A stretch of DNA of 45,792 bases, from IMG/VR virus record IMGVR_UViG_3300008266_000101, positions 1-45,792 of that record; one strand, 5' to 3'. Source of the DNA: a virus. Below are positions 4,190 through 40,093 of this stretch, in pieces; position 1 is the stretch's first letter; every line of letters begins with the position of its first letter. The position numbers and the translations under genes were made by a program. The notes beneath the pieces are model-generated. The model saw nothing but the letters and a program-made list of their open reading frames with translations, was not told the DNA's origin and did not search any database.

Positions 4190-4193
4190 AACA

Positions 4194-4502
4194 TTATCTA
4201 GCTTGGTTAAATCGATTATATAAATCTAAAATACCGTTAATATCTGTAGGAACTCTTAATTGAGTACCAGGAACTGGATATAAAGCACCTCTGGTTATGT
4301 TGTTATTAGCCATTGCTATTATCCACCATAAAGTGGCATCTCCATAATAGGAATAAGCAATACTATCTAATCTATCTCCTACAGTAGTGATAACATAATA
4401 ATCATTCTCTGACAAAGGAATATTAGGGTAAAATTTTCCTTTATAGTAAGGTCTATTAGTATTATTTGTTTTTAAAACAGTAGCATCACCATAACGTTCC
4501 AT
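4194..4502 (-). CDS. LysM-like baseplate protein (T4 gp53-like)
   Basis: A 102-residue protein whose core YYVITTVGDRLDSIAYSYYG, then WWIIAMANN and PGTQLRVP, is a LysM fold: the opening TVGDRLDSIAYSYYGD, the N-rich middle and the P-G-x-x-L-R-V-P ending are all present. Small LysM proteins occur in baseplates of contractile tails, including T4 gp53 in the wedge and gpX-type hub proteins. Here it lies between two baseplate-type genes. It has one of the few clear Shine-Dalgarno sequences in the window: AAAGGAGG five bases before the ATG, embedded in the last codons (Lys-Gly-Gly) of the upstream gene. Whether it is a wedge or a hub component cannot be told from sequence alone. Confidence 0.75.
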   Translation of the reverse strand: MERYGDATVLKTNNTNRPYYKGKFYPNIPLSENDYYVITTVGDRLDSIAYSYYGDATLWWIIAMANNNITRGALYPVPGTQLRVPTDINGILDLYNRFNQAR

Positions 4503-4503
4503 A

Positions 4504-6705
4504 TTAACCTCCTTTTAAAGTATTTTTTAAATAATTTTGTTCTAGTTTTTCCTGAAATGCATTTTTAAATTTAGTGGGAGGCTGCTGACCTTGTAGTTCC
4601 CCAGCTCTACCTGGGAATCTATATTGGGCCTTATCAATATCAGTTGGAGGTATAGTTGTTGGTTGTTTTATTTTAGGTTGTGGTGTTGGTGGTGGTGTTG
4701 GTGCAGGGGGAGTAGGTTTCGGTTGTGGAGGTACAGGGATTGGAGGATCTACTAAAAATCCACAATCTTGATATTGTGGTAAATAATTATGAATAACTGT
4801 GAAATTAAAATCAACAGCTAGGTATTGAGCAAATCCAGCATCTATATCCCAAGGAGAACCATCAACAGGAGTAAAATTTAAGTTAGTTATAATTCCTGGT
4901 TGGTCTATTATGTATCCTCCCACTCTTAGTCTTATTATTATACCTCCTAGTAGGCTATTATTGTATTTTCCTGCTAGTGTAGAGGCTAATTCACTTACTT
5001 CACAATGTTTTTTTCGAAGTTCTCCAGCATTAAAACAAGGAACATTAAATGCTAATTTTACAGAACGTTTAAATTCATTAAATATATAGAATTTTTCTGC
5101 TCGACCTACATACTTTACATCTCCCCAAGAGCTATCATATGATTCATTATAAGTAGTAATATAACCTAAATAATTTAATACTTTTAAAGGATTTCCAGTA
5201 AATGGATCTAATGGTGTTATTCTTATTACCATCGTATCATCATCTACATTTAGATCATTTGTTCTTTTAAATTGATTAGCTAAGGAAGCAGAAACATATT
5301 TAAAATCAGTAGCATTTCTATTAACATTAACTTGTACTACTGTTCTAGAAGTATCGTTAGATGAATTATAATTTGTATATGTTGTACTAGTTTCATTAAC
5401 TTTTTTTCTTAAGTCTTCATATTTCTTTAGAGCCGGAGTTGAATAAGGAATAACATTTTGGTTAATATTAATTTCAGTAGGAATATCACTTCCTGAAATC
5501 TGGGTTAATCCTAAATCATTACTTGCTGTTAAATACCCATTAACTTCTCCTCCATTATAGGTAACAGGATTATTAATTAATGAAGTTGGTATTGGTAATT
5601 CAAATCTATTAGAAGGATTTAATAATGATGAAGTATTATTAGATACCCCTAAATCATTATTTACTATTACTATATTATCCTTTTTCTTTTCTTGATATTC
5701 TTTATAAGTATTATTTATAAATGAACCATTAATTTTTAAATCAGTATCTTTAATTAAATCAAAGCTAGAACTAGCTAAAGCAGAATTAGTTCTATTACTG
5801 ATTTCAAAATCAAAGCTACTACTTATTTTAACTTCAGAAATATGTGTAGCATTAAAATTTTTATTTTTAGCATAATCTATTTTAAGACTATCATTGGTAC
5901 GTTCTGGTACCCTTTGGATTAGTGTTCTACCTATACCGTATACTGAATTGGGGCCTCCTATATAGTCAGCAATTCTACTATTTTGTATGTCATTAAAAAC
6001 CGAATTTGCAAACGGTATTCCTCCTGCAAAAGTAGCGGCAATAGCACTTAGTGTTTTTTGTTCTTTTTTTCTTAATTTAATATTACCTTTATTAAGATCA
6101 TAATTAGTACCTAAACCAAATCTATTTCTTAATCCAGTTAATCTATTATTTTCTTCGTTATTATTATTTTGGACAACAGCTAAATATTTAGTTTGTTCAT
6201 TTTGAACAGGTAATAAACCATGTCTATTAAAGTGTTGACCAAAAGCACCGGCCGGAACTTGTGCTAATGTATTAATACCTAAATTATATATGCGGGTAGG
6301 ACCTACAGCATTAACTATTTTATTTGCTGTATTAATAATAAAATTACCTACATTTCTTAACAATCCACCTCCTTTAACAGGTGAATCTGTTTTTAATTTT
6401 TTAGTTTCTAAAACAGGATTGGACATTTGTAGTCCAATTTGTTTAACTATAAATAAAGGCCCTTTAGGAAAATCAGTAAGAAATTTCCCGATACGGAGTG
6501 TATCAACAACAGCAGCATTAGCAGCGCCTACAACTCCACCTCTTACTAAACCATCATCGAATTTAGTCATTCGAAAACGGTTAAAGCCACTATCAACTTT
6601 GTTGATATCAACTTTTTGGTATGGTTGACCGCTGTCACCTCCGCCTGGTCGATCACTTCCGTACTTAAGTGATTTTAAGTCGGTTTTTAAATCAAGTAGG
6701 GGCAT
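4504..6705 (-). CDS. Large baseplate-type structural protein with Pro-rich segment (733 aa)
   Basis: No named family is evident, but the start (MPLLDLKTDLKSLKYGSDRPGGG) resembles a conserved structural protein found beside the tape measure in T4-like marine phages. The middle is Asn/Ser rich with many short beta-prone stretches. Around residues 500-640 is a folded part including VVQVNVNRN and WGDVKYVGRAEKFYIFNEF. Residues ~653-688 are a Pro-rich linker (PPIPVPPQPKPTPPAPTPP). The C-terminus NYLKNTLKGG supplies the ribosome-binding site for the next gene. It starts nine bases after the 100-residue gene. Position between tape measure and LysM/hub genes points to baseplate assembly or the hub-tape junction; this is inferred from context. 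Confidence 0.75.
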   Translation of the reverse strand: MPLLDLKTDLKSLKYGSDRPGGGDSGQPYQKVDINKVDSGFNRFRMTKFDDGLVRGGVVGAANAAVVDTLRIGKFLTDFPKGPLFIVKQIGLQMSNPVLETKKLKTDSPVKGGGLLRNVGNFIINTANKIVNAVGPTRIYNLGINTLAQVPAGAFGQHFNRHGLLPVQNEQTKYLAVVQNNNNEENNRLTGLRNRFGLGTNYDLNKGNIKLRKKEQKTLSAIAATFAGGIPFANSVFNDIQNSRIADYIGGPNSVYGIGRTLIQRVPERTNDSLKIDYAKNKNFNATHISEVKISSSFDFEISNRTNSALASSSFDLIKDTDLKINGSFINNTYKEYQEKKKDNIVIVNNDLGVSNNTSSLLNPSNRFELPIPTSLINNPVTYNGGEVNGYLTASNDLGLTQISGSDIPTEININQNVIPYSTPALKKYEDLRKKVNETSTTYTNYNSSNDTSRTVVQVNVNRNATDFKYVSASLANQFKRTNDLNVDDDTMVIRITPLDPFTGNPLKVLNYLGYITTYNESYDSSWGDVKYVGRAEKFYIFNEFKRSVKLAFNVPCFNAGELRKKHCEVSELASTLAGKYNNSLLGGIIIRLRVGGYIIDQPGIITNLNFTPVDGSPWDIDAGFAQYLAVDFNFTVIHNYLPQYQDCGFLVDPPIPVPPQPKPTPPAPTPPPTPQPKIKQPTTIPPTDIDKAQYRFPGRAGELQGQQPPTKFKNAFQEKLEQNYLKNTLKGG

Positions 6706-24307: not shown

Positions 24308-25831
24308 TTAAGCCCAAATATAAATATCACCAGTGTTTGTAACCCACATATTACCAGATCCATTAGAACCAGTACCCCAAGTTGGAGGTACAGTGTTTGT
24401 TGGAGCTGATCCTTGATTGATTTTTGCTGTTACTACATATTCATTAGGAGTTAATGAATTTGCAGTACCTACAGCATCAAACGCTACAGCAAAACGACCA
24501 TAAGGTCCATGATCATTAGTAGCACCTGCTTCAAGGTAAAATGCAGAACCAGAACCAGCAGTATTGTATTGAGTTATCCAACCAGAATCAGCTAATGTTG
24601 ATGATCCACTATTAACTAGAATAAATTTATCTCTAACATTTAAGTTATCCGTGTTTGTAAATGAAGCAGTACCTGCTACTGATAAGTCTCCAGTTACAGT
24701 TAAGTTATTATTAAACGTTGAGTTACCAGTTACTGTTAAACCACCTGCTGAAATTGTAGAGCCAGAAGCAATAGTTACTGTAGTACCATTATCACTAATA
24801 AGACTATTTACAAATCCTGTTCCACTCCATTTTGGATGATTACCTGTTGTTAAGTTAGCAGCACCAGAAACATGTACTGTTACTGCTGTTGAACCATTAT
24901 ATGTAGCAGCACTACCTGATATTCCAACTCCAAACGTTAATGCGTTTGCTAATGAATTTGCTGAGGCTGCTGTTGATGCAAAAGCAGCAGTTATTGCTTG
25001 AGAGGCACTTACTGCCCATGAAGCAGTACCAAATAAAGATCCTGTAAAATTAGTTGCTGTTACACTTCCACTAATATTAAGTGAACCTGTTACAGTGTGG
25101 ACATCAGTAATTGCATTACCTATTTTAACTCCAGTACCTAAAACTGAAAGTTCAGTACCGCTACCTGTAACAACAGTAAAGGTTCCAGAAATTATTTGGT
25201 TACCAACAAATGTATTTGAGCCCGTAGTTACAGGAGCGTTTAGAGCATATGATGCAGTTAATACACTATTAGCTCCAAAAGGACCAAAAACATTAGATGC
25301 AGTAATGAAGGAAGAAGTAACATTTAAAGTATTAGTTGCAGCATTATAAGAAAAACTAGCACTATTTACATACAATGATTGACTTCCTGATCCTGAAACA
25401 ACGAATGTTGGATACCAAGTACCAATACCGGTGTTATTCATTGTTATAGTAGAGGTAGAAGATGCTACTCCTTGTGCTACTGTTATATCAAATGTAGTGT
25501 TATCTCCTTTGGTAAAGGTAATAGTTGAGGAGTTGATAGAAGCTGTAATTAAACCTCTAAGTGGAAGAGAAGAAGTTTCTGCAAATGAGGCACTAGTAGC
25601 AAATGAAGCAGTACCGGTTAAGGGTCCAGCAAAAGAACCACTAAATGAACCAGAATGGACTAAGTTAGTAGCATTTGTAGTTGCTACTATATTACCAGTA
25701 CCATTAATAGCTTGTATACCTAGAGTGCCATTAGCACTACCTGTTACTACTCCATTTAATAAATCACTTACTTGTAAGGATGCTAATTGAGCATTACTAC
25801 CAGAAACTATGACTTTGCGCCAAACTGCCAT
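24308..25831 (-). CDS. Tail fibre protein, 507 aa
   Basis: The N-terminus MAVWRKVIVSGSNAQLASLQ matches the attachment-type start of the 2478-residue fibre. Residues ~70-370 are shaft-like repeats: GSFSGSFAGPLTGTASFATSA, GSLFGTASWAVSASQAIT, and beta repeats such as SGSTISAGGLTVTGNSTFNN and NLTVTGDLSVAGTASFTN. The C-terminal ~110 residues form a head: DKFILVNSGSSTLADSGWI, SAFYLEAGATNDHGPYGRFA, ending GNMWVTNTGDIYIWA; the last strand has the look of a fibre tip. No S74 domain. It lies between the 690-residue fibre and the two small paralogues. Host-receptor binding is inferred from context and architecture. Confidence 0.87.
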   Translation of the reverse strand: MAVWRKVIVSGSNAQLASLQVSDLLNGVVTGSANGTLGIQAINGTGNIVATTNATNLVHSGSFSGSFAGPLTGTASFATSASFAETSSLPLRGLITASINSSTITFTKGDNTTFDITVAQGVASSTSTITMNNTGIGTWYPTFVVSGSGSQSLYVNSASFSYNAATNTLNVTSSFITASNVFGPFGANSVLTASYALNAPVTTGSNTFVGNQIISGTFTVVTGSGTELSVLGTGVKIGNAITDVHTVTGSLNISGSVTATNFTGSLFGTASWAVSASQAITAAFASTAASANSLANALTFGVGISGSAATYNGSTAVTVHVSGAANLTTGNHPKWSGTGFVNSLISDNGTTVTIASGSTISAGGLTVTGNSTFNNNLTVTGDLSVAGTASFTNTDNLNVRDKFILVNSGSSTLADSGWITQYNTAGSGSAFYLEAGATNDHGPYGRFAVAFDAVGTANSLTPNEYVVTAKINQGSAPTNTVPPTWGTGSNGSGNMWVTNTGDIYIWA

Positions 25832-25853: not shown

Positions 25854-25865
25854 TAATAAATATTA
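25854..25865 (-). promoter_or_regulatory. Junction motif before the 507-residue fibre gene
   Basis: Plus strand TAATAAATATTA, identical to the copies at 23826 and 44265; 23 bases from the ATG. Confidence 0.35.
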
Positions 25866-27935
25866 GTTTTCTAGACCTATATACATTGATGATGAGGTAA
25901 AATATATACTTCCTGCATTAGTTGGATTCACAGGTAAAGCTGATTGTGTTTGTATTTGTACTATACTTTGGCTCACAATAAAAACCGGTTCTTGTGTAGT
26001 GAAATTACGAACTATGAATAAATTACTATATAAATCAGTATCGCCACTACTTGATATATTTAAATATTTTGTGCTACCTGATTTAATTAGGAATAGACTA
26101 TTAGGATTTACATTAACACTAGCAGTAATACTACCTGTTGTTATTTGAAATAAACTTACATTATTAGGATCAATATAAGAAGCAGTAACAGCAAATAAAG
26201 AATAAGATGATGTTGTAGCATAAGATGCTGAAATTGAATTTTGCGCCCAAGATGCTGTACCAAATAAACTTCCTGTTGCTAATAATGAGCCACTGCTATT
26301 AAATCTAGTAGTTGATGTAGAACCAACAATATCTAGATAATTACCATTAAGAGTTAATGTTCTAATACCAGCTAATGAACCATCAGAAGTATAAATGTTA
26401 TTAGCCTGTATTAATGTTTGTACAACACCCGCTTGAAGTTCTACACGATCAAGTCTAAATGCAGGTAATGAGTTAATAAATCTAAGACGAACCCTAGTAA
26501 ACGCAGCCTGAGTAAAGCGCCAGTTAGCTACTGGTATTTGAATTAGCTGGTAGGTTCCAGTTGTAGAGCTGCTAAAGCCAAATTGACCATTGAGTACACT
26601 TATTTCTGTAGATATAAGTGTATTTCCATTGTAGAAACCTATTGCTAAAGTGGAGTTTGTATTCCAGGTTGCTCCTAATCTAATTGCAAATTTAAATACA
26701 GTATAATTAGATATAGAATCGGTACCAGAAATTCTATCAAACTGGAGGTATCTAGTACCTGTAGTAGTAGCAGAAACAGATGTACAAACAACTCCAGTAT
26801 AAGGATTTGTTGCATTAGCAAAATCTGCAGTGATACCAAGTGAAGAAGAAGTCCATGTATTATTTACTACCTCATCATAGATAATAGAAGTAGTAATGTT
26901 TATAGGGCTTGTTGCTCCTGCCGGTACTAGGATAGTGGTTAATTCAATCTCAGTAGTAGGATCTATTTGAGCCTTTACAGGGTTACTACTTGGTGTACCT
27001 GGTATTACTATTACTTGTCCTTGATCGTTTACTGCAACAATGTCAAGCCTTGGATTACTAATATCAGCTACTCCAAGTGTTACTTGGGTATTGTTAGTAG
27101 TAAAATATACACCATTAATATAGTAATAGGCAGCACTTACATCATATACCCATCCAGTACCGGACCAACTTACAATACCTCCACTAACTAATCCATTAGT
27201 AACACTAGTGTATACAGGAATATTCAGAACATTATCTATAAGAGAAGAGGTTCCTGAATTTCCATTAGTAGTTAATGATATTATTGAACCAGAAAAATAG
27301 GAAGCAGTTAATGCATTGAGAGCCCATGAGGCTGTTCCAAATAAAGAACCAGTAATACTGCCAGTTACGGTTAAAGAGCCAGATATTGTCTGATTACCTT
27401 TAAATATATTTGATCCAGTCGTGGCTAATGAAGCAGACAATGATACAAATACAGGATCTGTTTCTTTATAAAAGGAAGCAGTAGAAGCAAAAGAAGCACT
27501 TGTTGCTATAGAGGCCGTAGCAGCATATGATGCGCTAATAGCATTTGATATACTGCCAGAAAAGTAAGATGCTGTTACTGCATTTTGAGCCCAAGATGCA
27601 GTGCCAACAGTAGATGTAATATAATCAGTTCCAGCAGTAGCAGCTGATATGGCAGTTCCGTCTCCTTTTAAAAGACCAGTGATTGTTGTAGATAAAGTAA
27701 TTGCAGGGGTTGTAGTTGGGTTAGCTACAGAGCCAGCAAGACCATTTGCTGTAACAACAGATACATTTGTTACAGTACCTCCCCCACCTCCAGCACTAGC
27801 AGTACTATAATAGACTTTACCATTAGCGTCTGCTACTACATATCTAGTTAGGGAGGAACTTTCGGTGAGTGCTACTTGTAATGTGTTTAAAACAGCATTA
27901 CCACCATACCTAATTAAATTGACGGATTGACCCAT
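25863..27935 (-). CDS. Tail fibre protein with jelly-roll-type middle domain, 690 aa
   Basis: N-terminus MGQSVNLIRYGGNAVLNTLQ resembles the other fibre attachment starts. Residues ~90-240 carry GTASWAQNAVTASYFSGS and GSLFGTASWALNALTASYF shaft modules. Residues ~270-560 are a distinct region: VVIPGTPSSNPVKAQIDPTT, EIELTTILVPAGATSPINI, then a beta-sandwich-like part (FAIRLGATWNTNSTLAIGFY, RVRLRFINSLPAFRLDRVEL) that recalls carbohydrate-binding domains seen in Bacteroidota phage fibres. Another GSLFGTASWAQNS module and a short C-terminal part follow (IYFTSSSMYIGLEN). A hairpin and junction motif lie just upstream. Sugar binding is a hypothesis. Confidence 0.87.
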   Translation of the reverse strand: MGQSVNLIRYGGNAVLNTLQVALTESSSLTRYVVADANGKVYYSTASAGGGGGTVTNVSVVTANGLAGSVANPTTTPAITLSTTITGLLKGDGTAISAATAGTDYITSTVGTASWAQNAVTASYFSGSISNAISASYAATASIATSASFASTASFYKETDPVFVSLSASLATTGSNIFKGNQTISGSLTVTGSITGSLFGTASWALNALTASYFSGSIISLTTNGNSGTSSLIDNVLNIPVYTSVTNGLVSGGIVSWSGTGWVYDVSAAYYYINGVYFTTNNTQVTLGVADISNPRLDIVAVNDQGQVIVIPGTPSSNPVKAQIDPTTEIELTTILVPAGATSPINITTSIIYDEVVNNTWTSSSLGITADFANATNPYTGVVCTSVSATTTGTRYLQFDRISGTDSISNYTVFKFAIRLGATWNTNSTLAIGFYNGNTLISTEISVLNGQFGFSSSTTGTYQLIQIPVANWRFTQAAFTRVRLRFINSLPAFRLDRVELQAGVVQTLIQANNIYTSDGSLAGIRTLTLNGNYLDIVGSTSTTRFNSSGSLLATGSLFGTASWAQNSISASYATTSSYSLFAVTASYIDPNNVSLFQITTGSITASVNVNPNSLFLIKSGSTKYLNISSSGDTDLYSNLFIVRNFTTQEPVFIVSQSIVQIQTQSALPVNPTNAGSIYFTSSSMYIGLEN

Positions 27936-28007: not shown

Positions 28008-28331
28008 CTATACTAAGGTTAAATTAAGTAGCCCAGTTACTACTATAAATGCATCGTTATTAATATCTCCACCCATAGACCCCCAATTTGTGTAGGTAGT
28101 TCCTGATACTTCTATTATATCTTTTAGTAATATTTCTGTAATTGTGTTAGTAACTGTTGCTACTTGTTCATCTGGTTGTGATACTTCTTCTTGAACTTCT
28201 ATTACTGATATTAAATAATATTTAAATATTGCTTTGTCATTTAAATTATCATAGCTTATTACCATATCAAAGTAATTAGCAGTAACGTTTTGTCCTCTAA
28301 CAGGAAAAGTGTATGGTTGAATTTGTCTCAT
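28008..28331 (-). CDS. Small fibre-region protein, 107 aa
   Basis: Beta-rich: QPYTFPVRGQNVTANYFDMV, then ISYDNLNDKAIFKYYLISV, an acidic linker EVQEEVSQPDEQVATV, a strand-helix part with ILLKDIIEVSGTTYTNWGSM and the end NDAFIVVTGLLNLTLV. The ending (Y-x-x-WG-x5-D-[AD]-[FY]-I-V-x-x-x-x-x-L-x-L) resembles small conserved proteins next to fibres in Bacteroidota phages, from memory. It is probably a virion or assembly protein; function unknown. Between the glycosyltransferase gene and the 690-residue fibre, with its own junction motif at 28344, so it may be separately transcribed. Confidence 0.72.
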   Translation of the reverse strand: MRQIQPYTFPVRGQNVTANYFDMVISYDNLNDKAIFKYYLISVIEVQEEVSQPDEQVATVTNTITEILLKDIIEVSGTTYTNWGSMGGDINNDAFIVVTGLLNLTLV

Positions 28332-28343
28332 TTAAATTATTTA

Positions 28344-28355
28344 CGTATAAATATT
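28344..28355 (-). promoter_or_regulatory. Junction motif before the 107-residue gene
   Basis: Plus strand CGTATAAATATT, 13 bases from the ATG, touching the stop codon of the glycosyltransferase gene. Confidence 0.35.
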
Positions 28356-29062
28356 TACTGATTATCAAATTCTTTATACATTTCATTCCATTTTGCATCT
28401 GATTCTTTAGGTTCCCATCCTGATATCCATGGTCCTCCTAGTGTATAGTGGAGTATTGTTGCTTTATTAAGTAATAAATTATCATTTATATCTACTAAAT
28501 GATTCCACTTATTATCTAATTCACCTATTTCTTCATCTTTTAACCATTTGAAAGCATGTAAATCCCTACCAGGCCATTTATTTAAATTATGTAATGTTAA
28601 TTCTTCATGTGCAGGATGATTACAATTAATTAACATAACAGATGACCAGTTTTTTCTGTTATAATAAACAGAGGCTTGATCTACCATTTTTATTTCACTA
28701 CTCCCCACCTTTTGTTGGTGTTTAACAACCATCACAGCATACTGTGGATCTGCTTGATCAAATAATTCATCTATATTTTCTAAAGCAATAATATCACAAT
28801 CAGCAAACAAAACCCAACCTTTTTCCATAAATGGAATTGCAAATCTAGAAATAGAAAATTCAGTAGTTTGAGGAGCTTCTGATATAGGGCACCACATTTG
28901 GTTTCCTCTCCATTCAATAGGTCTATTTAATATATTGTTTATTTCACTTAGTTTAAGTGCTTTAATATCTAAATTATTAGAATATTTTTTAAGAGAATAT
29001 TCTGCTACATCATATGCTAATGTTTCTCTAGGATCCCATCCAATATAAACTTTATTCTTCAT
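28355..29062 (-). CDS. GT8-like glycosyltransferase, 235 aa
   Basis: A retaining nucleotide-sugar transferase of the GT8 type. Signs: KVYIGWDPRETLAYDVAEYS at the N-terminus (nucleotide-binding strand), VLFADCDIIALENIDELF with the DxD metal motif (DCD near residue 87), YNRKNWSSVMLINCNHP, and HYTLGGPWISGW near residue 204, the typical His-containing end. The enzyme should move a sugar from UDP-sugar to an acceptor in the cytoplasm. Its start overlaps the end of the MptE-like/methyltransferase gene by 11 bases, so the two are made together. Both sit inside a cluster of Ser/Thr-rich fibre genes, pointing to fibre decoration (or host-surface change). The sugar and acceptor are not known. Confidence 0.82.
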   Translation of the reverse strand: MKNKVYIGWDPRETLAYDVAEYSLKKYSNNLDIKALKLSEINNILNRPIEWRGNQMWCPISEAPQTTEFSISRFAIPFMEKGWVLFADCDIIALENIDELFDQADPQYAVMVVKHQQKVGSSEIKMVDQASVYYNRKNWSSVMLINCNHPAHEELTLHNLNKWPGRDLHAFKWLKDEEIGELDNKWNHLVDINDNLLLNKATILHYTLGGPWISGWEPKESDAKWNEMYKEFDNQ

Positions 29063-30389
29063 TTGTTTTTATTTTAATATCTTTTACCCCAACTACAACA
29101 TGAAGTTCAGGACCTTTTTTAGTTACTTTTCCTACTGTAAAAAATTGGCTTAATATTTCTTTCCACCATTCTTCTCCTTCCTGAATTAAGTGAGTATTTC
29201 TGCCATCTGCATATGTTTTAGATGCAGGGCCAGTATGGATAACAAAATATCCAACTTGTTTTACACACCTTCTTAGATCACCTAACACGTCTCCTAAAAG
29301 TTCTGGTTCTATATGTTCTAATACGTCTGTGCACATTACAATATCTGCGGGGCGAGGGCATTCTTCTTTACCTATTACTCCGGGATCATATTCCCATATA
29401 GGAAAAGGTAAAGCTTTAGCAAGATATCCTTTACCACAACCATAATCTAATACTAGTTTTGTATTGAGTGCTTCTGTTAGTTTAATTACTAACTCAGCAT
29501 ACTTTCCTCCTCCTATACCATAAGCAGTATTATCTTCATGTAGTTGTTTATTTAATTGAGCATATTCATCTGTGATAAATTTAGGTTTTTGAAAACCTAT
29601 AACATTTTCATGCTTTTTATTTTTCTTTTCTGGTGTGTGGTTTCTATACATTTCTTGTGTTAAACCATCTCCATAGAATATAGCTTTTACTGCTGGGAGT
29701 TGATCAAGTTCATGTAGTGTTTGTCTAGAGGCTTCCAACATTGATGGTGTTGTATAATATATTTTACCATTAAATTCTACTTCTGAATATTTGTGTTTTC
29801 CGTTTGGATGATGATCAGCATGTCTTTTTCCATCTTCTGAGGATCCATCTAGGCCAAAAATATGAAAATTTCTATAGCCTAGAAAAGCAGCATTAGTTAA
29901 GCATCTTAATCCAGCATCACAACCACCAGCAACTGCCCATTCACCCGGAGGTAACATTGCAATACCTTCTTCTGTTGAATCAAACACATGCCATAGTTTT
30001 ACATTATATCCATCAAGATGTTTAAAATATAAAGGATGACAAGTACTAGCAATTAAATATTCTACATCTTTATGAGGTTCTCCTAATAGCTTTATTTTAT
30101 GAGATCTGGGATCTACTTCTACATGATAATTAGGGATAATATTTTTCTCTATTAGGAATTTATGAGCACCAGAACAAGTCATTATAACTTTAAACTTCTT
30201 AATTTCTTCCCATGTATATTTTAAAGAAGGTCCAAAGCCTACTATTGCAATAGGTTCTTCTATTCTTTCCTCTTTAAATTCTACTCTATCTTTTACATGA
30301 GATATTGCAAATCTAATTTGTTCATCTCTTTGCCATAAAGGAACGGCATATTTTACATCTTGCTTTGCATTGATGTCAAGCTTTTTCAT
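29052..30389 (-). CDS. MptE-like (DUF115) domain fused to SAM-dependent methyltransferase, 445 aa
   Basis: Residues ~45-250: PIAIVGFGPSLKYTWEEIKK, FKVIMTCSGAHKFLIEKNII, PNYHVEVDPR and FHIFGLDGSSEDGKRHADHH; the [IV]VGxGPSL start, the CSGA turn, the V-E-x-D and the F-G-x-D are the DUF115/MptE-like pattern, a family that includes flagellin-glycosylation Maf proteins and 6-hydroxymethylpterin diphosphokinases. Residues ~300-420: VLDYGCGKGYLAKAL (SAM motif I, near residue 315), DIVMCTDVLEHIEPELLGDV (near residue 355) and VGYFVIHTGP, a class I methyltransferase. The C-terminus overlaps the glycosyltransferase start. Which small molecule or protein is modified cannot be told; transfer of a methylated sugar to fibres is one option. 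Confidence 0.8.
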   Translation of the reverse strand: MKKLDINAKQDVKYAVPLWQRDEQIRFAISHVKDRVEFKEERIEEPIAIVGFGPSLKYTWEEIKKFKVIMTCSGAHKFLIEKNIIPNYHVEVDPRSHKIKLLGEPHKDVEYLIASTCHPLYFKHLDGYNVKLWHVFDSTEEGIAMLPPGEWAVAGGCDAGLRCLTNAAFLGYRNFHIFGLDGSSEDGKRHADHHPNGKHKYSEVEFNGKIYYTTPSMLEASRQTLHELDQLPAVKAIFYGDGLTQEMYRNHTPEKKNKKHENVIGFQKPKFITDEYAQLNKQLHEDNTAYGIGGGKYAELVIKLTEALNTKLVLDYGCGKGYLAKALPFPIWEYDPGVIGKEECPRPADIVMCTDVLEHIEPELLGDVLGDLRRCVKQVGYFVIHTGPASKTYADGRNTHLIQEGEEWWKEILSQFFTVGKVTKKGPELHVVVGVKDIKIKTNEE

Positions 30390-30421: not shown

Positions 30422-31327
30422 TTAGTTAATTCTAGCAACTCTAAAGAAAGAGCCTCTAGCAATAACTAAAGTATTAGCAGCAACTGAAGATCTAGCTACA
30501 GGGTATATTGCTCCTCCGGTTTGAGCATCTATTATTCCATTTACTCTTATAAAGTGAAGACCAGTAATACCAACAGCAGCAGACCAAACAGCAGAGTTTG
30601 AGTCGCCTGTATCAAAATCTCCAATAGCAAGAGCAGAAAAAGTAGAAGCACCTGTAGGGTTAACACTTATACCTCCTATCCACTGACCTGCTACTCTGTT
30701 TGCAGTAGGCCATACCATTCCAAAAGCATTGCCTGTTGCTGCTGATACAGAGTACATTATTGCTCCTTCTATATGATATATAACACCAGCACTTACTGAT
30801 GTAGTTAAACCTGATATACCTGTTAATACGGCTGTTGCAAGTGTGTTTGCTACACTTACATACCGTGTTGGGTTTACTGAGGTAGCTCCCCCTGGAATAG
30901 CACTTATTCTATTTGATAAGGCATTTATTGCATTTTGGAGACCAATTTGAGGAGCACCACCAGGAGCAACAGCAGATACGTTATTGATAACACTTTCAAC
31001 TATTGATACTTCATTACTTACAGTATCAACTCTAACTGAGAGTGCTGCATCTGCTACTGATACTGCTTGACTAAGAACAGAAACTGCGTTACTGACAGTA
31101 TTAATTCTAACTGAGAGTGCAGCTGCATCTATGCTAAGTTCATTACTTATAACAGATATAGCATTTGATAATGCATCTATAGTTGGGCCGGTGATTGCAT
31201 CTACTACAGCTAATGCTCCTGAAAGAGCAGTGCTGCCTGTAACTATTAATCCGCTACCAGAAACTATAAGGCTGCTTGAAACTTCTAAATTTCCTAAACT
31301 GCCTGTATCTGTATAAAATATTGCCAT
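30422..31327 (-). CDS. Coiled-coil-stalked fibre/spike protein, 301 aa
   Basis: N-terminal ~35 residues are short beta repeats (SLGNLEVSSSLIVSGSGLIV, TGSTALSGALAVVDAITG). Residues ~45-120 repeat S-N-x-[IV]-S-V-[IL] with A-A-L-S-V-R-[IV]-[ND]-T-V-S-N occurring twice, a heptad-like stalk probably trimeric. From about residue 155 a Ser/Ala-rich beta domain follows (RYVSVANTLATAVLTGISGL, GVIYHIEGAIMYSVSAATG, GLHFIRVNGIIDAQTGGAIY, VIARGSFFRVARIN), with the look of a jelly-roll head. It lies between the 2915-residue fibre and the sugar-modifying genes, starting 14 bases from its junction motif. Receptor-binding spike is inferred from architecture; no named family. Confidence 0.83.
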   Translation of the reverse strand: MAIFYTDTGSLGNLEVSSSLIVSGSGLIVTGSTALSGALAVVDAITGPTIDALSNAISVISNELSIDAAALSVRINTVSNAVSVLSQAVSVADAALSVRVDTVSNEVSIVESVINNVSAVAPGGAPQIGLQNAINALSNRISAIPGGATSVNPTRYVSVANTLATAVLTGISGLTTSVSAGVIYHIEGAIMYSVSAATGNAFGMVWPTANRVAGQWIGGISVNPTGASTFSALAIGDFDTGDSNSAVWSAAVGITGLHFIRVNGIIDAQTGGAIYPVARSSVAANTLVIARGSFFRVARIN

Positions 31328-31334
31328 AATATAT

Positions 31335-31346
31335 TAATAAATATTT
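31335..31346 (-). promoter_or_regulatory. Junction motif before the 301-residue spike gene
   Basis: Plus strand TAATAAATATTT, 8 bases from the ATG and touching the stop of the 2915-residue fibre gene; very close for a promoter. Confidence 0.3.
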
Positions 31347-34300
31347 TAAGATTCTCCATAAGCTGTTGCTATCCAATATGTTGTTCCTGCTAGTGCAGTA
31401 TTACTATTTGCATTAATCACAAATGATCCTACAGCTTTACTTTCTATAGTCCATGATCTAGCATCTTCACCTGTTATAACTATTGCATAGCTTGTATTAG
31501 GGAATGCTGTACTAAATGTTACTGTTGCTTTCTTGGGGTTACCTGCAAAAGATGAATTTACTACAGACCCAGCTTTTGTTGTTAATCCACCACCGGTTGA
31601 ATTTAATGCATAAGAAGCAGTCAGTGCGTAAGAAGCACTTAAAGCCGGGTTAGCCGAAGTAAATATAGATCCTGTTACGTAGGAAGCTGTACCAAATAAG
31701 GATCCAGTAAATCCTAATGTGGATGTTGTAGAGCCTGTTATAACTAAACTGCCAGTAATAATAGCAGAGCCAGTATATGGAAAAGCAGCGCCTGCAGTTG
31801 CATTGATAGTAATAGATCCACTTCCGCCTGTAGGAGATATAGTTACATTTGTACCTGCTACGATTTGAGTAACACCACCATTAGAAGCATATGAAGCAGA
31901 TAATGAACTTGTTGCAAACGAAGCGGTTGCTACAGACATTGATGATGTCTGGCTGTTTAATACAAATGAGCTTGTTTGGCTAGTTAATACATACAAAGGA
32001 GCAAACGATGCTGTAGCAGCAAATGAAGCAGACAATGAACTAGTTGCAAAGGAAGCAGTTGCAACAGTCATCGAAGCTGTTTGTGCATTTGTTACAAATG
32101 AACTTGTTTGACTGTTTTGAACAAATGAAGATGTCTGACTGTTTAAAACATATAAAGGAGCAAACGATGCTGTAGCAGCAAATGAAGAACTTAATGAGCT
32201 AGTTGCAAACGATGCTGTTGCAACAGTCATTGAACTTGTTTGACTATTCTGTACAAATGATGATGTTAAATTGTTTGTAACAACATCATTTCCATTTATA
32301 GTTAAACTTCCACTTATACTTACACTACCGGTAAACTGATGAGTGTTAGTAATTATACTGCCAAATCTGGTTGAGCCGGTAACAAAATCGGTTGAGGAAG
32401 TAATTGTTTGAGCTATAATCGTTTGTGCAGTTAATGTTCCTCTTACTGTAAAGTTGTCTGCAGAAGAAGCAGTTGAAGCAAAAGAGGCACTTAATGAGCT
32501 AGTTGCAAAGGAAGCAGTTGCAACTGTCATTGATGATGTTTGACTAGTTAAAACATATAAAGGAGCAAAGGAAGCGGTTGCAGCAAAAGAAGCACTTGTT
32601 GCTATTGATGCTGTTAAAGAATTATTTGCCCAACTAGCAGTTCCAAACAAGGAAGCTGTTACACCATTTGTAAAATTACCACTACCACTTACATCTAATG
32701 TATATTGTGGATTTACAACGTTTATACCTATTCTACCATTTGCGGAACCAGAGAATGCATTTCCAGCAGCTACACTATAATAAGAACCCGTACCAAATAT
32801 TATACCACCTATGTTTATAGAATCCTGTCTACCATTTTCTAAAGTAACCTTTGTTCCTATAATGATATTGTTTCTTCCTATTAGATTATTTGATGATATA
32901 TATCCTGCCCTCTCTCCCAATATTATAGAATTAGAAGCATTAACTGCTACAGTACCAGCTGTATTTCCTATGAATATGGAATTAGAAGCGTTGGAAGCGG
33001 AATATCCTGCTGATAGACCCATGAAGATGGAGTTACTAGCATCAGTAGCTTCGTTTCCTGCACTCTGTCCAATGAAAATAACATTGCTTGAGTTGAATGC
33101 ATTTAATCCTGCAAACCTACCCATTGCAATATTATAATCACCGGTAGTGCTATCTCCTGCGAATTGCCCCAAATATATTCCATGATTGGAATAAGAATAC
33201 CCGCCGGCCCCATATCCTATAAATACAGTATCAAATGCGCTAGAGCTAACTCCAGCTTCTAGTCCTATATTAACTGCTCTATCACCATCCAAATTATCTT
33301 TTCCTGCATCATTTCCTATAAAAACCGAATTTCTACCGTTTCCGGAGTTTTTTCCTGAGTTTTTTCCTATGAATATAGACTGATCACCATAAAAAGCATT
33401 ATATCCAGCATTTGTTCCTATATAAACTCCATCTGGAGAATACTGTAATCCTCCAGCATTATTGCCTATAGCAACTGCGTTTTTAATTCCAAATCCTGAT
33501 CCTGTTCCTGCATTTTCTCCAATATATATACTACTTGTTGAATTTTGTGGTATATTGGAGAAAGGAGCTACAGAATACAAATTACTTCCACTTACTGCTA
33601 TAGGATAAGAAGATGTTATTGCGTTTGTTGCCCAACTTGCTGTTCCAAACAATGAAGCCGTTACACCGTTTGTAAAATTACCACTACCACTTACATCTAA
33701 AGTATATTGCGGATTAACTACGTTTATACCAACTCTGCCATTAGATGTTCCGGTGAAGGCATCACCTGTAGGTTCGGCATATGAGCCAGTTGCAAATATT
33801 ATTGCTCCTAAATTAATTGAATCTTTAGTACCATCAGGCAAGGTAATATTAGTACCGATAATAATATTGTTTGATTTGATACCTAAAGCACCACCATTTG
33901 TATTATATCCTGCATGATATCCTATTAAAGTTGAATAAGAAGCAGATGTTGCTGCATATCCTGCACCATTTCCTAAAAAGTTAGAATTACTTGCATTTAT
34001 TGCATCACCACCAGCACTTGGTCCTATAAAATTTGAATTATTTGCAAAGCTTGCATTAATACCTGCATTTTCACCTATAAAGTTTGAATTAAATGCTTCT
34101 GATGCTGAATATCCAGCTCTGTATCCTAAAAAGTTTGATCTTTGGGCATCGTAAGAATCAAAACCCGCTTGGTATCCTAAAAAGTTAGAATCATTTGCAT
34201 ATAACGATAGATAACCGGCCTGATATCCTAAAAAGTTTGAATTATATGCATCAATTGCTGAATATCCGGCTTGATTTCCTAAAAATATTGCATCAAACCT

Positions 34301-37300
34301 ATTAAAATTAAATCCACCTGCTAATGGATTTGTACTATATAAAGTACTTCCACTTACTGCTATAGGATAAGAAGATGATATTGCGTTTGTTGCCCAACTA
34401 GCAGTACCTTGAAGTGAACCAGTAAATCCAAGTGTTGAAGTTGTAGAACCCGTTATTACTAAACTACCAGTTATTAAAGCAGAACCAGTATATGGGAAAG
34501 CAGCACCGGCAGTTGCATTAATTGTCACATTACCTAAACCACTAGTTGGAGAAATAGTAACATTAGTTCCTGCTGTGATTTGAGTTACACCTCCATTAGC
34601 AGCATAGGAGGCAGATAATGAACTAGTTGCAAACGATGCTGTTGCAACCGTCATTGATGCTGTTTGGCTATTTAATACAAACGAACTTGTTTGAGCGTTA
34701 GTTACAAATGAACTTGTTTGACTGTTTTGAACAAACGATGATGTTTGGCTGTTTAGGACATATGGAGACAACATTGATGATGTTGCACTAGTTAAAACAT
34801 ATAGTGGTGCTAATGCTGCTGTACTAGCGAATGATGCTGATGTCGAGCCACTTGCATAAGATGCACTTAATACAGACATTGATGATGTCTGTGAATTAAG
34901 GACAAATGAGGATGTTTGAGCGTTTGTTACAAATGAACTAGTTTGGCTGTTCTGAACAAACGAGGATGTTTGGTTTGAAGTAACAACACTATTATTATTT
35001 ACTGATAGACTTCCAGTTATACTTACACTACCAGTAAATTGATGTGTATTTGCTAATAAACTGCCGAATCTAGTTGATCCAGTAACGAAATCAGTAGATG
35101 ATGTAATAGTTTGGGCTACAATTGTTTGAGCCGTTAACGTGCCTCTAACAGTAAAATTGTCTGCAGATGATGCTGTACTAGCAAATGAACTTGATACAGC
35201 ATTGAGAACATAGGATGCAGTAGTAGCATTATTAGCCCAACTTGCAGTTCCAAATAGCGATCCTGTAATACCTAAACTAACATTTAAACTACCAGTTATA
35301 GTTGTTGAGCCAGTAATATTAACAGACCCCGTTATTGTTTGGTTACCTCTAAATGTGTTTGAACCAGTAGTAGCAAATGAGCTTGTTTGTGAAATAAGTA
35401 AATATGGAGCCAACATTGATGATGTGGCACTATTAAGAACGTAGTTAGGTGCAAATGAAGCAGTACTAGCAAACGATGCACTTACTGCATTTAAAACATA
35501 GGATGCTGTAGTTGCGTTTACTGCAGTAGTAGCAAATGAAGCAGACACTGCATTTAAAACATAAGAGGCAGTTGTAGCACTAGATGCATTACCTAATAAT
35601 GATCCTGTAATTGAGGTAGCATTTATAGTTGTTATAGTAGCAACAGATGCTGTAATAGCTGATCCTGATATTAATGCAAAATTGTATAAATCATTTCCTC
35701 CTAATCCAAGATCTCCAGTCATTTGTCTAAAACCATCAACACGAAGATATTGCAGGTGATCATCAGCAGTTAATCCTAATAGATTTCCGTGTACTGCAGA
35801 TGCATTCACACCAGCTGCTCTAAAACCAATAATTGGTCTAATATCTTCAATTTGTGTAATATTAGCAGATCCTGATTGAACATATACTGCTGCTAACGGT
35901 ACTACACCATCATTAAAGTATGTTGGTATAGTTGGTAAACTAGCACCTTCTGCCTGTACTAAACTAGCGTATTGGTTATCATTAATTACTAGGAAGTATT
36001 CTTCATCTACACTCTCACCTACTAAATAAACTGTATGTTTAGTGTAGTATGAAGCCGACATTGCTATTAATTGGCTGCCTGAAGCATATACATTATTAGG
36101 AACAATAGATGAAGTAAATCTAGCCCAAACTGAAGCGCTTTGATAGTATTGTGTTAAATTAATTGATGATGTGCCTGCTGGGAGGAAGTTATTTTCTGAG
36201 AGATAATAGCTACCTTGTGTTACATCTAATTTAAATGGAGTGACATCTTCAGTTACAATAGATCCTTCAGCAAATACAGGTCCAAGGGCTTCTCTATTAA
36301 ATTTAGAGAGCTTATTAGACATATGTTCACCATCAAATGGACTTTGATCTATAAATTCAATTCCAGTATTATTTGTAACTACTCTACCAAGTATAATGTT
36401 TGTAGTACTATCAGGTGATGTACCAGAAGCTGAAAGTGTACCATTATCGTTTAGGTAAATGTAGTTGTTTGTATTAGCTGTAAGAGTTAGATTAGTATTA
36501 ATCCAATCTATTCTCTTGTAGATATCTGTACTTACTGCGTCTTGTAAATAACCAAATCCAGCAGCAGTTGTGATTGTTAAACTACCAGAAATAGTAATTT
36601 CACCACCCTGCATAACACCCATTGGTGAACCCTTAAAGATAAGAGTTGTAGCGTCAGTATGAGTACCATCAGCAAATGTTACAGATAATTTTCTTGTAAT
36701 ATCGTTTTCACCATCTGTATCATCTAGGAAGTTCCAATAAAAATCCTCACTTACATTATTTATCTTAGTGTGATCAGAGACACCTTGATATCTACCTACT
36801 GTACCTATTTTTTGTACATCAAAGTCATAAGTAGAAGAATCATGTATCATAGATCCTACTACTCTGAATGTTGGTGGATTACCTGTATTAGGAACAACGT
36901 AGCCATAATCCCAATCTTGTATATCTAAACCAGATGCTTCTAATGTTGAACCATTTTCTAGTTTAATTGCTATTGAATTAGCTGTAGAATCACCTTTAAA
37001 TAAAGAAGTATACAGGTTTAAGCTAGAGCTAGGGCCTACAGCGTAGTTACCTATAGTAGCACTAGCTGATGGAAATAGGTAGTAGTTTTCTAAGTTACAA
37101 TATGAAGAAACTCCGTTACTAGATGATACATAAACACCATAACTAAATGTTCCGTTTATATCAATATATTCACCATAAAACTGAGTATCAGTTGTGCTTG
37201 CGTCTACAGTTATACCTCTGTCACAATCATATATTGAGACTTTATGGGCTTGAGCAAAATCACCAATATCATCTATATACAATGCTGAATACCCAGAACC

Positions 37301-40093
37301 AACATTTGCTAAACTTAGGAAGGATACTTCATTGTTAACACCCATTTTAATAAGGTGTTGATTAGATGAGCTTGGGAATATTTGGGTAGTTTGAATGTTA
37401 CTACCTACAATACTAACATAAGGTTTACCTACTAAATCAATTGTTTTTTCTGTAAATTGACCAGGACCTACCTCAATTATATATCTGTTATCAGCTGAAG
37501 AATCTGTAATCCAGGCTACTGAAGCACTAATTGATGTAAAGTCACCTCCCTTTTTAGCTACAGTTAATCTTCTTGGATCTTGTCCTACTTCGTAAAGTGA
37601 AGCTGTTGCTGGGATGATTGTTTTAAGAAATGTATCAGTACCAGATATTTTACCAGTTGAACCTGTGTGTTCAATTAATACATCATAAGTGCAGTTCTCA
37701 AAGTTAAGAGCAACAGCATCAATTGATGGAGCAGATCCTGTTTGAGGAGCCCAAATACCATTTATCCACCTTTGGAAGTTAACACCTGTTAAACGAAGTG
37801 AACCCCCATTATAAACTTTAAATCCAGTACCCCTAGCAGTACCAGTTGCTCTTGTTAATAAACATCCGTTAACAATGAATGTACAACCAGGAGCGTCTGC
37901 TAATGCGAATATTTGATTATTATCAGTTCCTGCTACACCACCATTGGTAGAGGTTACGTTACGTAACTGCATCCTACCAATACTACCTCCACTACCTGTT
38001 ACACGGAAACCAATGTCAAATGATTTTTGAGAAACAGCATCTGTATAACCGCCATATTTTACATTAGAACACTGTAAGATACAGTTTCCACTTCCTGAAC
38101 CTTCACAAGTTGCGTTTGTATAGTTTGTACCAAAACGAATATTTTCAGCATATGCAATTGCATTTCTCTGAGGTGTAGTAGGGGAAGAATAATAAATTGC
38201 TGAAGCGCCAGGTCCGGTTGAGCCTTGTATTTGCATATCAATAACCATTGTTTGGTCACTCATTACAAATATACTAGCACTTGGATTAGAAGCAGATACT
38301 ATTGTTGAAGTTGAACTATCACCTTTTACTGTTACATAAGAAGGTATAGTCATTGTGTCTTCTATATAGACGCCAGGATAAACTCTTACTGTGTAAGTAT
38401 TGTTTTCAGAAGCATCTGTAATACTATCTACAGCAGTTTTAATTACATTATAGCCTGTAGCACTACCTGATAATCCTACTGTTATTATATTGTCTATATA
38501 AGGTTTAAAAGATGATGTTGGTATAGCTAATGGAAGCCAATTATTATTACCAATCCAAGCATGACCGGGATTAAGATTAGGTAGACTATTAGTTAAACCC
38601 GAATTGGAAACCATTATACTTCCATTAGTATTGTCTACTCTAACTACTGTACCTAATGGTTGTATTAATGTTGATCCTGTTGGTTGAATGTTTGTATAAC
38701 CGCCACCTGCAGCAACATATACTTCATCACTTTCGGCAAAAGTAGAGGTATCAATATTATTTATAAATCCTAATACTATGCCTAAACCTTGTTGACCTGC
38801 TGTTAGTGTTTCATTTAAGATATAAGTAGCAGGCATTAATGAAGCACTGGCTGCATCTGCTTTAACTACTTCTGCTGTATTGCCAACTGATGAGGTTACA
38901 TAAACAGGAGTACCTTTTACTAAAGTAGTTGCTCCAACGTTTTTAACACTTTCTAAAACTGATCTAACATAATTCCAACTTAAAGTACCGGCACCATCTG
39001 TCTGTAAGAAGAAACTTGATGTGCCTGAATTGGTTGGGTAATTATTTCCACTGGCTGTTAAATAAGTTGTATTAATTGTAGTTGCTGTTAGTGAACCTGT
39101 AAGTCCATAGGAGCCAGTTAATTGTTTAGAATTAATCCAAACACTACCACTTTTAACTAATAAATCACCATATGAAGAGGTAGTTGTAGTATCACGAATA
39201 TCGTGTAGTTCTCCTAGTTCATATCCATTGTCTACTTTAACTTGTAAAATACCATTAGTAGATTGAACAACGACCTGTCCTAATCTTACTGTGTGATTAG
39301 GAGCAGTAGGCACAACATCAGTATATTGACCTGATGATGATAGATATAATAGTGTTGCTGGGGCAAAGGCGTTTGTGTTGACGCCTATAATTTCTCCATC
39401 TGTTACTGCGTATCCATAGTTATTTGGACTTATATCTTGAGCTATAAGACCAATAGTATAAGCTGAACTGGGATCAGTTTCCCAACTTGCTGTTGCAAAT
39501 GTAGCAAATTGACCTGAATTACCGTTAATATAAACAACGGTACCTTTAGTTAATGTAAATGAGTTGGTATTTCTACCTCTTAAAACCGCCATATGACCAA
39601 CATTGATCATAAAGTTATTTACATCGGTATCAAGCTCCAATGTTTTTCTATCATCATCCCAGTGTATTCTTCCTTCTAAATGGGAAAGTGTACCAGGATT
39701 AGTTGTAAAATCTATATAATCAACTGTTGATATGTAAGATTGAGTAACAAAGATGGACCCAGTTAAGTTTATACTACCAGTAATTGCTGCAGAGCCAGTA
39801 TATGGGAAAGCAGCACCTGCAGTAGCATTGATAGTAACGGAGCCAGTTCCGCTTGTAGGAGATATAGTTACATTTGTACCCGCTACAATTTGAGTAACAC
39901 CACCGTTATCAGCATAAGATGCTGACACTACATTATTTGCCCAACTAGCAGTACCAAATAAAGAACCAGTGAAATTAGTTGCAGTTACACTGCCGGTGAC
40001 AGTAACACTTCCGCTTATAGCAGTGGAGCCTGTTACATTTAATCCTCCTTGGTCTACAATGAGACCATTCTTAACTTTGAATTCGTTTGGCAT
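31346..40093 (-). CDS. Giant chimeric tail fibre with beta-helix domains and YadA-like repeats (2915 aa)
   Basis: Largest gene of the window. N-terminus MPNEFKVKNGLIVDQGGLNV plus GSLFGTASWANN. A ~300-residue beta-rich part follows. Residues ~560-1165 hold two pectin-lyase-type beta-helix domains, each started by a strand with a P-G turn (RVYPGVYIEDTMTIPSYVTV, then EVGPGQFTEKTIDLVGKPYV), a fold used by capsule-degrading phage spikes. After a further beta part come repeated shaft modules (TASYVLNAVSASFATTA, SQTSSFV) and two blocks of 17-residue repeats (S-N-F-[LI]-G-x-x-A-G). The end (~2835-2915) is a tip-like domain: TVTFSTAFPNTSYAIVITG, SWTIESKAVGSFVIN, TTYWIATAYGES. No S74 domain. Depolymerase activity is not shown. 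Confidence 0.93.
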   Translation of the reverse strand: MPNEFKVKNGLIVDQGGLNVTGSTAISGSVTVTGSVTATNFTGSLFGTASWANNVVSASYADNGGVTQIVAGTNVTISPTSGTGSVTINATAGAAFPYTGSAAITGSINLTGSIFVTQSYISTVDYIDFTTNPGTLSHLEGRIHWDDDRKTLELDTDVNNFMINVGHMAVLRGRNTNSFTLTKGTVVYINGNSGQFATFATASWETDPSSAYTIGLIAQDISPNNYGYAVTDGEIIGVNTNAFAPATLLYLSSSGQYTDVVPTAPNHTVRLGQVVVQSTNGILQVKVDNGYELGELHDIRDTTTTSSYGDLLVKSGSVWINSKQLTGSYGLTGSLTATTINTTYLTASGNNYPTNSGTSSFFLQTDGAGTLSWNYVRSVLESVKNVGATTLVKGTPVYVTSSVGNTAEVVKADAASASLMPATYILNETLTAGQQGLGIVLGFINNIDTSTFAESDEVYVAAGGGYTNIQPTGSTLIQPLGTVVRVDNTNGSIMVSNSGLTNSLPNLNPGHAWIGNNNWLPLAIPTSSFKPYIDNIITVGLSGSATGYNVIKTAVDSITDASENNTYTVRVYPGVYIEDTMTIPSYVTVKGDSSTSTIVSASNPSASIFVMSDQTMVIDMQIQGSTGPGASAIYYSSPTTPQRNAIAYAENIRFGTNYTNATCEGSGSGNCILQCSNVKYGGYTDAVSQKSFDIGFRVTGSGGSIGRMQLRNVTSTNGGVAGTDNNQIFALADAPGCTFIVNGCLLTRATGTARGTGFKVYNGGSLRLTGVNFQRWINGIWAPQTGSAPSIDAVALNFENCTYDVLIEHTGSTGKISGTDTFLKTIIPATASLYEVGQDPRRLTVAKKGGDFTSISASVAWITDSSADNRYIIEVGPGQFTEKTIDLVGKPYVSIVGSNIQTTQIFPSSSNQHLIKMGVNNEVSFLSLANVGSGYSALYIDDIGDFAQAHKVSIYDCDRGITVDASTTDTQFYGEYIDINGTFSYGVYVSSSNGVSSYCNLENYYLFPSASATIGNYAVGPSSSLNLYTSLFKGDSTANSIAIKLENGSTLEASGLDIQDWDYGYVVPNTGNPPTFRVVGSMIHDSSTYDFDVQKIGTVGRYQGVSDHTKINNVSEDFYWNFLDDTDGENDITRKLSVTFADGTHTDATTLIFKGSPMGVMQGGEITISGSLTITTAAGFGYLQDAVSTDIYKRIDWINTNLTLTANTNNYIYLNDNGTLSASGTSPDSTTNIILGRVVTNNTGIEFIDQSPFDGEHMSNKLSKFNREALGPVFAEGSIVTEDVTPFKLDVTQGSYYLSENNFLPAGTSSINLTQYYQSASVWARFTSSIVPNNVYASGSQLIAMSASYYTKHTVYLVGESVDEEYFLVINDNQYASLVQAEGASLPTIPTYFNDGVVPLAAVYVQSGSANITQIEDIRPIIGFRAAGVNASAVHGNLLGLTADDHLQYLRVDGFRQMTGDLGLGGNDLYNFALISGSAITASVATITTINATSITGSLLGNASSATTASYVLNAVSASFATTAVNATTASYVLNAVSASFASTASFAPNYVLNSATSSMLAPYLLISQTSSFATTGSNTFRGNQTITGSVNITGSTTITGSLNVSLGITGSLFGTASWANNATTASYVLNAVSSSFASTASSADNFTVRGTLTAQTIVAQTITSSTDFVTGSTRFGSLLANTHQFTGSVSITGSLSVNNNSVVTSNQTSSFVQNSQTSSFVTNAQTSSFVLNSQTSSMSVLSASYASGSTSASFASTAALAPLYVLTSATSSMLSPYVLNSQTSSFVQNSQTSSFVTNAQTSSFVLNSQTASMTVATASFATSSLSASYAANGGVTQITAGTNVTISPTSGLGNVTINATAGAAFPYTGSALITGSLVITGSTTSTLGFTGSLQGTASWATNAISSSYPIAVSGSTLYSTNPLAGGFNFNRFDAIFLGNQAGYSAIDAYNSNFLGYQAGYLSLYANDSNFLGYQAGFDSYDAQRSNFLGYRAGYSASEAFNSNFIGENAGINASFANNSNFIGPSAGGDAINASNSNFLGNGAGYAATSASYSTLIGYHAGYNTNGGALGIKSNNIIIGTNITLPDGTKDSINLGAIIFATGSYAEPTGDAFTGTSNGRVGINVVNPQYTLDVSGSGNFTNGVTASLFGTASWATNAITSSYPIAVSGSNLYSVAPFSNIPQNSTSSIYIGENAGTGSGFGIKNAVAIGNNAGGLQYSPDGVYIGTNAGYNAFYGDQSIFIGKNSGKNSGNGRNSVFIGNDAGKDNLDGDRAVNIGLEAGVSSSAFDTVFIGYGAGGYSYSNHGIYLGQFAGDSTTGDYNIAMGRFAGLNAFNSSNVIFIGQSAGNEATDASNSIFMGLSAGYSASNASNSIFIGNTAGTVAVNASNSIILGERAGYISSNNLIGRNNIIIGTKVTLENGRQDSINIGGIIFGTGSYYSVAAGNAFSGSANGRIGINVVNPQYTLDVSGSGNFTNGVTASLFGTASWANNSLTASIATSASFAATASFAPLYVLTSQTSSMTVATASFATSSLSASFASTASSADNFTVRGTLTAQTIIAQTITSSTDFVTGSTRFGSIITNTHQFTGSVSISGSLTINGNDVVTNNLTSSFVQNSQTSSMTVATASFATSSLSSSFAATASFAPLYVLNSQTSSFVQNSQTSSFVTNAQTASMTVATASFATSSLSASFAATASFAPLYVLTSQTSSFVLNSQTSSMSVATASFATSSLSASYASNGGVTQIVAGTNVTISPTGGSGSITINATAGAAFPYTGSAIITGSLVITGSTTSTLGFTGSLFGTASYVTGSIFTSANPALSASYALTASYALNSTGGGLTTKAGSVVNSSFAGNPKKATVTFSTAFPNTSYAIVITGEDARSWTIESKAVGSFVINANSNTALAGTTYWIATAYGES
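32850..33540 (-). repeat. Second 17-residue (YadA-like) repeat block in the 2915-residue fibre
   Basis: Coding repeats of about 51 bases: [VI]-[FY]-[IL]-G-x-x-A-G units such as NSVFIGNDAGKDNLDGD, NAVAIGNNAGG, NSIFMGLSAGYSASNAS and NSIFIGNTAGTVAVNAS. Pattern: hydrophobic-G, A-G, then D/N-rich spacer, as in left-handed parallel beta-roll heads of trimeric adhesins, but with period 17. Boundaries approximate. Confidence 0.75.
33860..34290 (-). repeat. First 17-residue (YadA-like) repeat block in the 2915-residue fibre
   Basis: Seven or more units of the type NSNFLGYQAGYLSLYAN, DSNFLGYQAGFDSYDAQ, RSNFLGYRAGYSASEAF, NSNFIGENAGINASFAN. At DNA level near-identical CCTAAAAAGTT blocks recur on the plus strand every 51 bases. 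Approximate limits. Confidence 0.78.

Follow-up and report, generated by a model that had tools for sequence, protein, structure and literature searches.

A phage-encoded Maf-like protein fused to a methyltransferase is tied to one tail fibre domain and suggests a fibre-modification cassette

The window comprises the whole of the IMG/VR virus record IMGVR_UViG_3300008266_000101 (45,792 nucleotides). It carries tail sheath, tail tube and baseplate genes and therefore represents a phage with a contractile tail, or part of such a phage. Two overlapping genes on the minus strand are embedded in a series of fibre-like genes on the same strand. The first (29052–30389) encodes a 445-residue protein, referred to here as the fusion. 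It contains an MptE-like/Maf_flag10 (DUF115) domain (residues 36–183, 29841–30284) and a class I SAM methyltransferase domain with an intact DYGCGKG motif (residues 298–409, 29163–29498). The second encodes a 235-residue GT8-type glycosyltransferase (GT, 28355–29062). The end of the fusion gene and the start of the GT gene share 11 bp (29052–29062), and both reading frames lie as originally predicted. The overlap, also 11 bp long, is kept in the nearest relative of the locus, L036, which is about 80% identical (genes at 3404–4735 and 4725–5441). A 107-residue protein is encoded on the same strand directly behind the GT (28008–28331); its position is kept in L011 and L036, and it has no family match in Pfam or PHROGs. 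A tail-sheath match on the L036 contig (IMGVR_UViG_3300006484_000008:7168-9468) is broken by three internal stops, one TAG and two TAA, possibly reflecting an insertion, a split gene or an assembly error.

The gene ending 32 bp before the fusion start encodes a fibre-like protein of 301 residues (30422–31327), which would be the likeliest substrate of the cassette. Its C-terminal region of approximately 150 residues (30425–30874), recognised by HMM and sequence-search matches, is a conserved domain tied to the fusion that we call CT1. Further upstream lies a repetitive fibre-like protein of 2915 residues (31346–40093), while fibre-like proteins of 690 (25863–27935) and 507 residues (24308–25831) are encoded downstream. 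All of them are rich in Ser, Thr and Asn, which make up 27.6% of the 301-residue, 34.0% of the 2915-residue, 35.5% of the 690-residue and 38.1% of the 507-residue protein, compared to 11–17% in the fusion and GT. The 2915-residue protein has no Pfam match. It contains many near-repeats of a GSLFGTASWAxNAxxASY-type motif, which also occurs in parts of the neighbouring fibre-like proteins.

Residues 36–183 of the fusion match the MptE-like family PF01973 (E 6.4e-18; 65.6 bits against a cut-off of 34.6), and residues 298–409 match Methyltransf_23 (PF13489, E 9.8e-9). In an alignment of 27 sequences (A1), with homologues 44–80% identical, the DUF115 motifs and the DYGCGKG SAM motif are nearly invariant; the methyltransferase residues D315, G317, G319 and K320 are fully so. 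The A1 profile has a single match among solved structures, the flagellin O-glycosyltransferase Maf (5mu5, E 1.9e-7), and the match is confined to the central part of that protein. The AlphaFold2 model of the fusion (pLDDT 88.6) also finds Maf 5mu5 as its best Foldseek match (E 7.5e-10), followed by archaeal MptE (8sd5 at 4.2e-6), SAM methyltransferases and mammalian sialyltransferases. The proposed comparison with Maf is thus borne out by both the sequence profile and the predicted fold. Maf consists of an N-terminal degenerate Rossmann domain, the central Maf_flag10 domain and a C-terminal helical domain (PMC11339370). This three-domain layout is absent in the fusion, where the DUF115 domain is followed by the SAM methyltransferase. 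Profile and model together identify the 445-residue protein as a Maf-like DUF115 domain joined to an intact SAM methyltransferase.

The GT matches phrog_28018 of the PHROGs collection. Its match to the Pfam family Glyco_transf_8 (PF01501) is below threshold (E 7.5e-4; 19.6 bits against a cut-off of 24.3), and a single-sequence search against PDB sequences gives no useful match. The structure model (pLDDT 90.7) is more informative: GT8 enzymes lead the fold search, with GlyE first (5gvw, E 8.5e-10) and WbbM, 3tzt, LgtC and glycogenin also at the top, down to about 1e-7. Identity in these fold alignments is 9–18%. The D88-C89-D90 motif (DxD, 28793–28801) and the HYTLGGPW motif (residues 205–212, 28427–28450) place D88, D90, H205, T207, G209 and P211 at invariant columns in 24 aligned sequences; both are motifs first noticed in this protein. 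We take HYTLGGPW to correspond to the metal-binding HxxGxxKPW motif of GT8 enzymes. The GT8 assignment is secure because of the structure search, the Pfam match being sub-threshold. Judged by its predicted fold, the GT is a GT8-fold enzyme with metal-binding motifs, though not a curated member of PF01501.

To survey the gene neighbourhood, viral contigs were scanned twice. For scans of the collection the full alignment (A3) was too diverse, and narrower alignments (A4 and A5) took its place. The two viral contig scans yielded 112 fusion loci, with several contigs fetched twice. Dropping copies at least 85% identical leaves 59 non-redundant loci, 52 of which have a readable upstream gene. We counted a gene as Ser/Thr/Asn-rich if these residues make up at least 24% of its product. 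A same-strand gene of this kind lies directly upstream of the fusion in 47 of the 52 loci, and in 30 of the 35 loci outside the seeds of the fibre profile. The first 29 loci give a count of 26, compared to a background of 25% among all genes of at least 150 residues in these loci (binomial p 5e-13). The distance from the fibre stop to the fusion start is mostly between -22 and +60 bp, with a 4-bp overlap as the commonest value. Homologues far from fibres had been named as evidence against the idea. For the fusion, only five loci lack a Ser/Thr/Asn-rich gene directly upstream (L051, L053, L060, L072 and L145); L072 has both the fusion and the GT. Homologues of the GT alone do occur far from fibres.

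The original prediction also drew on the composition of the neighbouring genes. The flanking fibre-like genes are indeed Ser/Thr/Asn-rich, but this carries little weight, since fibres in general have such a composition. Ser and Thr account for 24.4% of the upstream fibres, barely above the 22.5% of other Ser/Thr/Asn-rich genes in the same loci (p 0.002), and we rejected richness alone as evidence for fibre modification.

A stronger link comes from the fibres themselves. Most upstream fibres end in the common CT1 domain, with terminal motifs like GSFxRAYRIG. An HMM built from 17 seeds recognises CT1 in 18 of the 35 upstream genes that were held out; farther away in the same loci it gives one weak match. 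CT1 is also found in L108, L110, L123 and L150, where no full fusion gene was called and the spacing is not tabulated. Among 27 phage records of 42–183 kb that bear the fusion, 23 contain CT1, always on the same strand and no more than 1.1 kb upstream of the fusion. Four records lack it, and the only copy away from the fusion is a weak, distant one in a single record. In the reverse direction, 2.9 million viral contigs were searched with five CT1 queries, which reaches fairly close relatives only (at least 49% identity); every contig returned was already in the fusion lists. A search of 50,697 phage records with four queries for the C-terminal domain gave no match. CT1 has no PHROGs match, no credible PDB match (best E 0.58) and, for the L046 copy, no Pfam match. 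Across 38 loci, CT1 and DUF115 distances correlate (rho 0.36, Mantel p 0.001), while CT1 and GT distances do not (rho -0.08, p 0.80); in the smaller set of loci with both CT1 and GT, the correlation between CT1 and DUF115 is marginal (0.27, p 0.05). At the level of sequence, the fusion gene is tied to a CT1-bearing fibre gene directly upstream. The adjacency, the common domain and the reverse search connect the fusion to one fibre more firmly than the argument first put forward.

Other parts of the module vary. Approximately one third of the fusions are longer, with an FkbM methyltransferase and a 2OG-Fe(II) oxygenase within the protein, or with one of them encoded by the next gene. The GT is present as a single copy in 20 of the 27 fusion-bearing records, downstream on the same strand in 19, and absent from seven. 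A contractile sheath is recognisable in only four of these records, so that the module probably occurs with more than one type of tail, although contigs may be fragments.

The position of the fusion directly behind one particular fibre gene suggests that these phages probably decorate their host-contact fibre chemically. That the genes form a modification cassette dedicated to the fibre is well supported. A chemistry for it can be proposed from the enzymes. Maf enzymes attach CMP-activated nonulosonic acids to Ser/Thr residues of flagellin, and the Clostridium botulinum enzyme also uses KDO (PMC11339370). By analogy, after translation of the fibre, the DUF115 domain would transfer a host-derived, CMP-activated acid sugar (nonulosonic acid or KDO) onto Ser/Thr residues of the upstream fibre. 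The GT8 enzyme could add a hexose, or extend the glycan by one, using a UDP-sugar as donor; the product would be capped through methylation by the methyltransferase. A family search of 16 records detected no CMP-sugar synthetase (PF02348); for an acid-sugar donor the phages would therefore depend on their hosts. In Gram-negative hosts, CMP-KDO would offer a widely available source. Such decoration would probably serve to alter receptor binding, to shield the fibre or to keep newly released virions from sticking to shed host glycans. We consider such self-decoration of a single tail fibre, by Maf-like sugar transfer, GT8 extension and methyl capping, the probable role of the cassette.

The enzymes could instead alter a host surface glycan such as LPS or capsule, blocking superinfection or aiding release, and travel with a fibre that recognises the same glycan. 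This is a real rival, which we regard as unlikely but deserving of attention. LgtC and WbbM, GT8 enzymes of LPS-type glycans, are among the fold matches of the GT, and serotype-converting phages provide a known precedent (cited in PMC12619734). Relatives of the GT are found in glycan-type clusters away from fibres in Pelagibacter phage Mosig and in Synechococcus phage S-SCSM2R, in the latter near KdsB and KdsA of the CMP-KDO pathway (L005:7995-12427). Stenotrophomonas phage DLP_6 has a pair of GT and methyltransferase genes next to one that is GT29-like, adjoining a tRNA cluster and again away from fibres. The GT alone is therefore not fibre-specific, whereas the fusion nearly is. Against an action on the host surface, neither the fusion nor the GT contains a membrane-like hydrophobic segment, and the link of the fusion to a single fibre C-terminal domain holds whether or not a contractile sheath can be recognised in the record. 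Genome contigs of 84,980 species gave one match only, and the contig concerned, which is binned with an Armatimonadetes genome, resembles phage.

Fibre chaperones are encoded just behind fibre genes, and the strict position of the fusion would also suit a protein that serves mainly as a fibre-assembly factor, its catalytic domains being kept for binding or folding. The near-invariance of the SAM-binding and DUF115 motif residues among homologues 44–80% identical makes this improbable, and the GT and the added FkbM and 2OG enzyme domains point to chemistry. A pterin diphosphokinase of the MptE type, or an enzyme acting on nucleotides or DNA and found near fibres by chance, is less probable still: MptE gave the Pfam family its name, and the fold matches include the HPPK structure of M. 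jannaschii, but Maf outscores MptE in both sequence and fold, and the linkage to fibres (47/52 loci, with CT1 in 23/27 records) is not incidental.

Fibre decoration by the cassette has partial parallels in known systems. With the Maf flagellin O-glycosyltransferases of M. magneticum (5mu5) and C. botulinum, the fusion shares the PF01973 domain, its fold and an apparent dedication to one surface filament protein. It lacks the N- and C-terminal domains of Maf, is fused to a SAM methyltransferase instead, and is encoded by a phage behind tail fibre genes rather than beside flagellin. The mycobacteriophages Che8, Corndog and Myrna encode glycosyltransferases that decorate their own structural proteins (Freeman et al. 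2023, as described in PMC12363180 and PMC12619734). The targets given there are capsid and tail tube proteins, whereas the present link is between a tail fibre and a Maf-like enzyme with a fused methyltransferase. As in such virion glycosylation systems, a genetic link of a phage-encoded glycosyltransferase to a virion protein is present. The GT shares its fold and metal-binding motifs with GlyE, LgtC, WbbM and glycogenin, but it is short and distant from them in sequence. GlyE extends glycans on a Ser-rich adhesin.

A parallel arrangement in cultured phages is a split cassette directly after the tail genes of the Caulobacter jumbo phages CcrColossus and CcrPW. CcrColossus gp126, annotated as an alpha-2,3-sialyltransferase, matches the MptE-like family marginally (E 1.5e-7; 31.8 bits, narrowly under the curated cut-off of 34.6), gp129 is a relative of the GT, and gp130 is a relative of the methyltransferase. 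These three kinds of protein are encoded right behind tail genes, but by separate genes and with an additional GT9 enzyme. Isolate phage genomes gave no match over the whole length of the fusion. MptE-like proteins already appear under that name in automatic annotations of uncultured phages. In open-licence PubMed Central papers we found no phage DUF115/MptE-like enzyme tied to fibres, which is not proof of absence. Glycosylation of virions by phages has precedents; the papers searched describe no Maf-like enzyme that is tied to a single fibre domain.

More broadly, these loci may represent a widespread, undescribed class of fibres in which CT1 is obligately paired with its own Maf-like sugar transferase/methyltransferase using host CMP-sugars, in some cases joined by an oxygenase or further transferases, in a modular and fibre-specific system. 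We offer this wider reading tentatively, at somewhat short of even confidence. Tail fibres decide the host, and if they are decorated with glycans, the fibre sequence by itself would not reveal host range or neutralisation, and recombinant fibres might behave differently when produced in the absence of the enzymes. Maf-type glycosylation of surface filaments would then extend from bacterial flagella to viral fibres. Because one enzyme is paired so tightly with one fibre domain, two or three genes would suffice for a direct test.

DUF115-related genes are also seen in other arrangements. Two fusion loci contain a second MptE-like/DUF115-related gene, one with a very weak Pfam match (L052:12487-13266) and one with 34% identity in blastp (L057:6796-7806). 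On the phage-like contig binned with Armatimonadetes, the related protein (L084:9141-10505) has the methyltransferase part first; the binning is possibly a clue to the host or a binning error.
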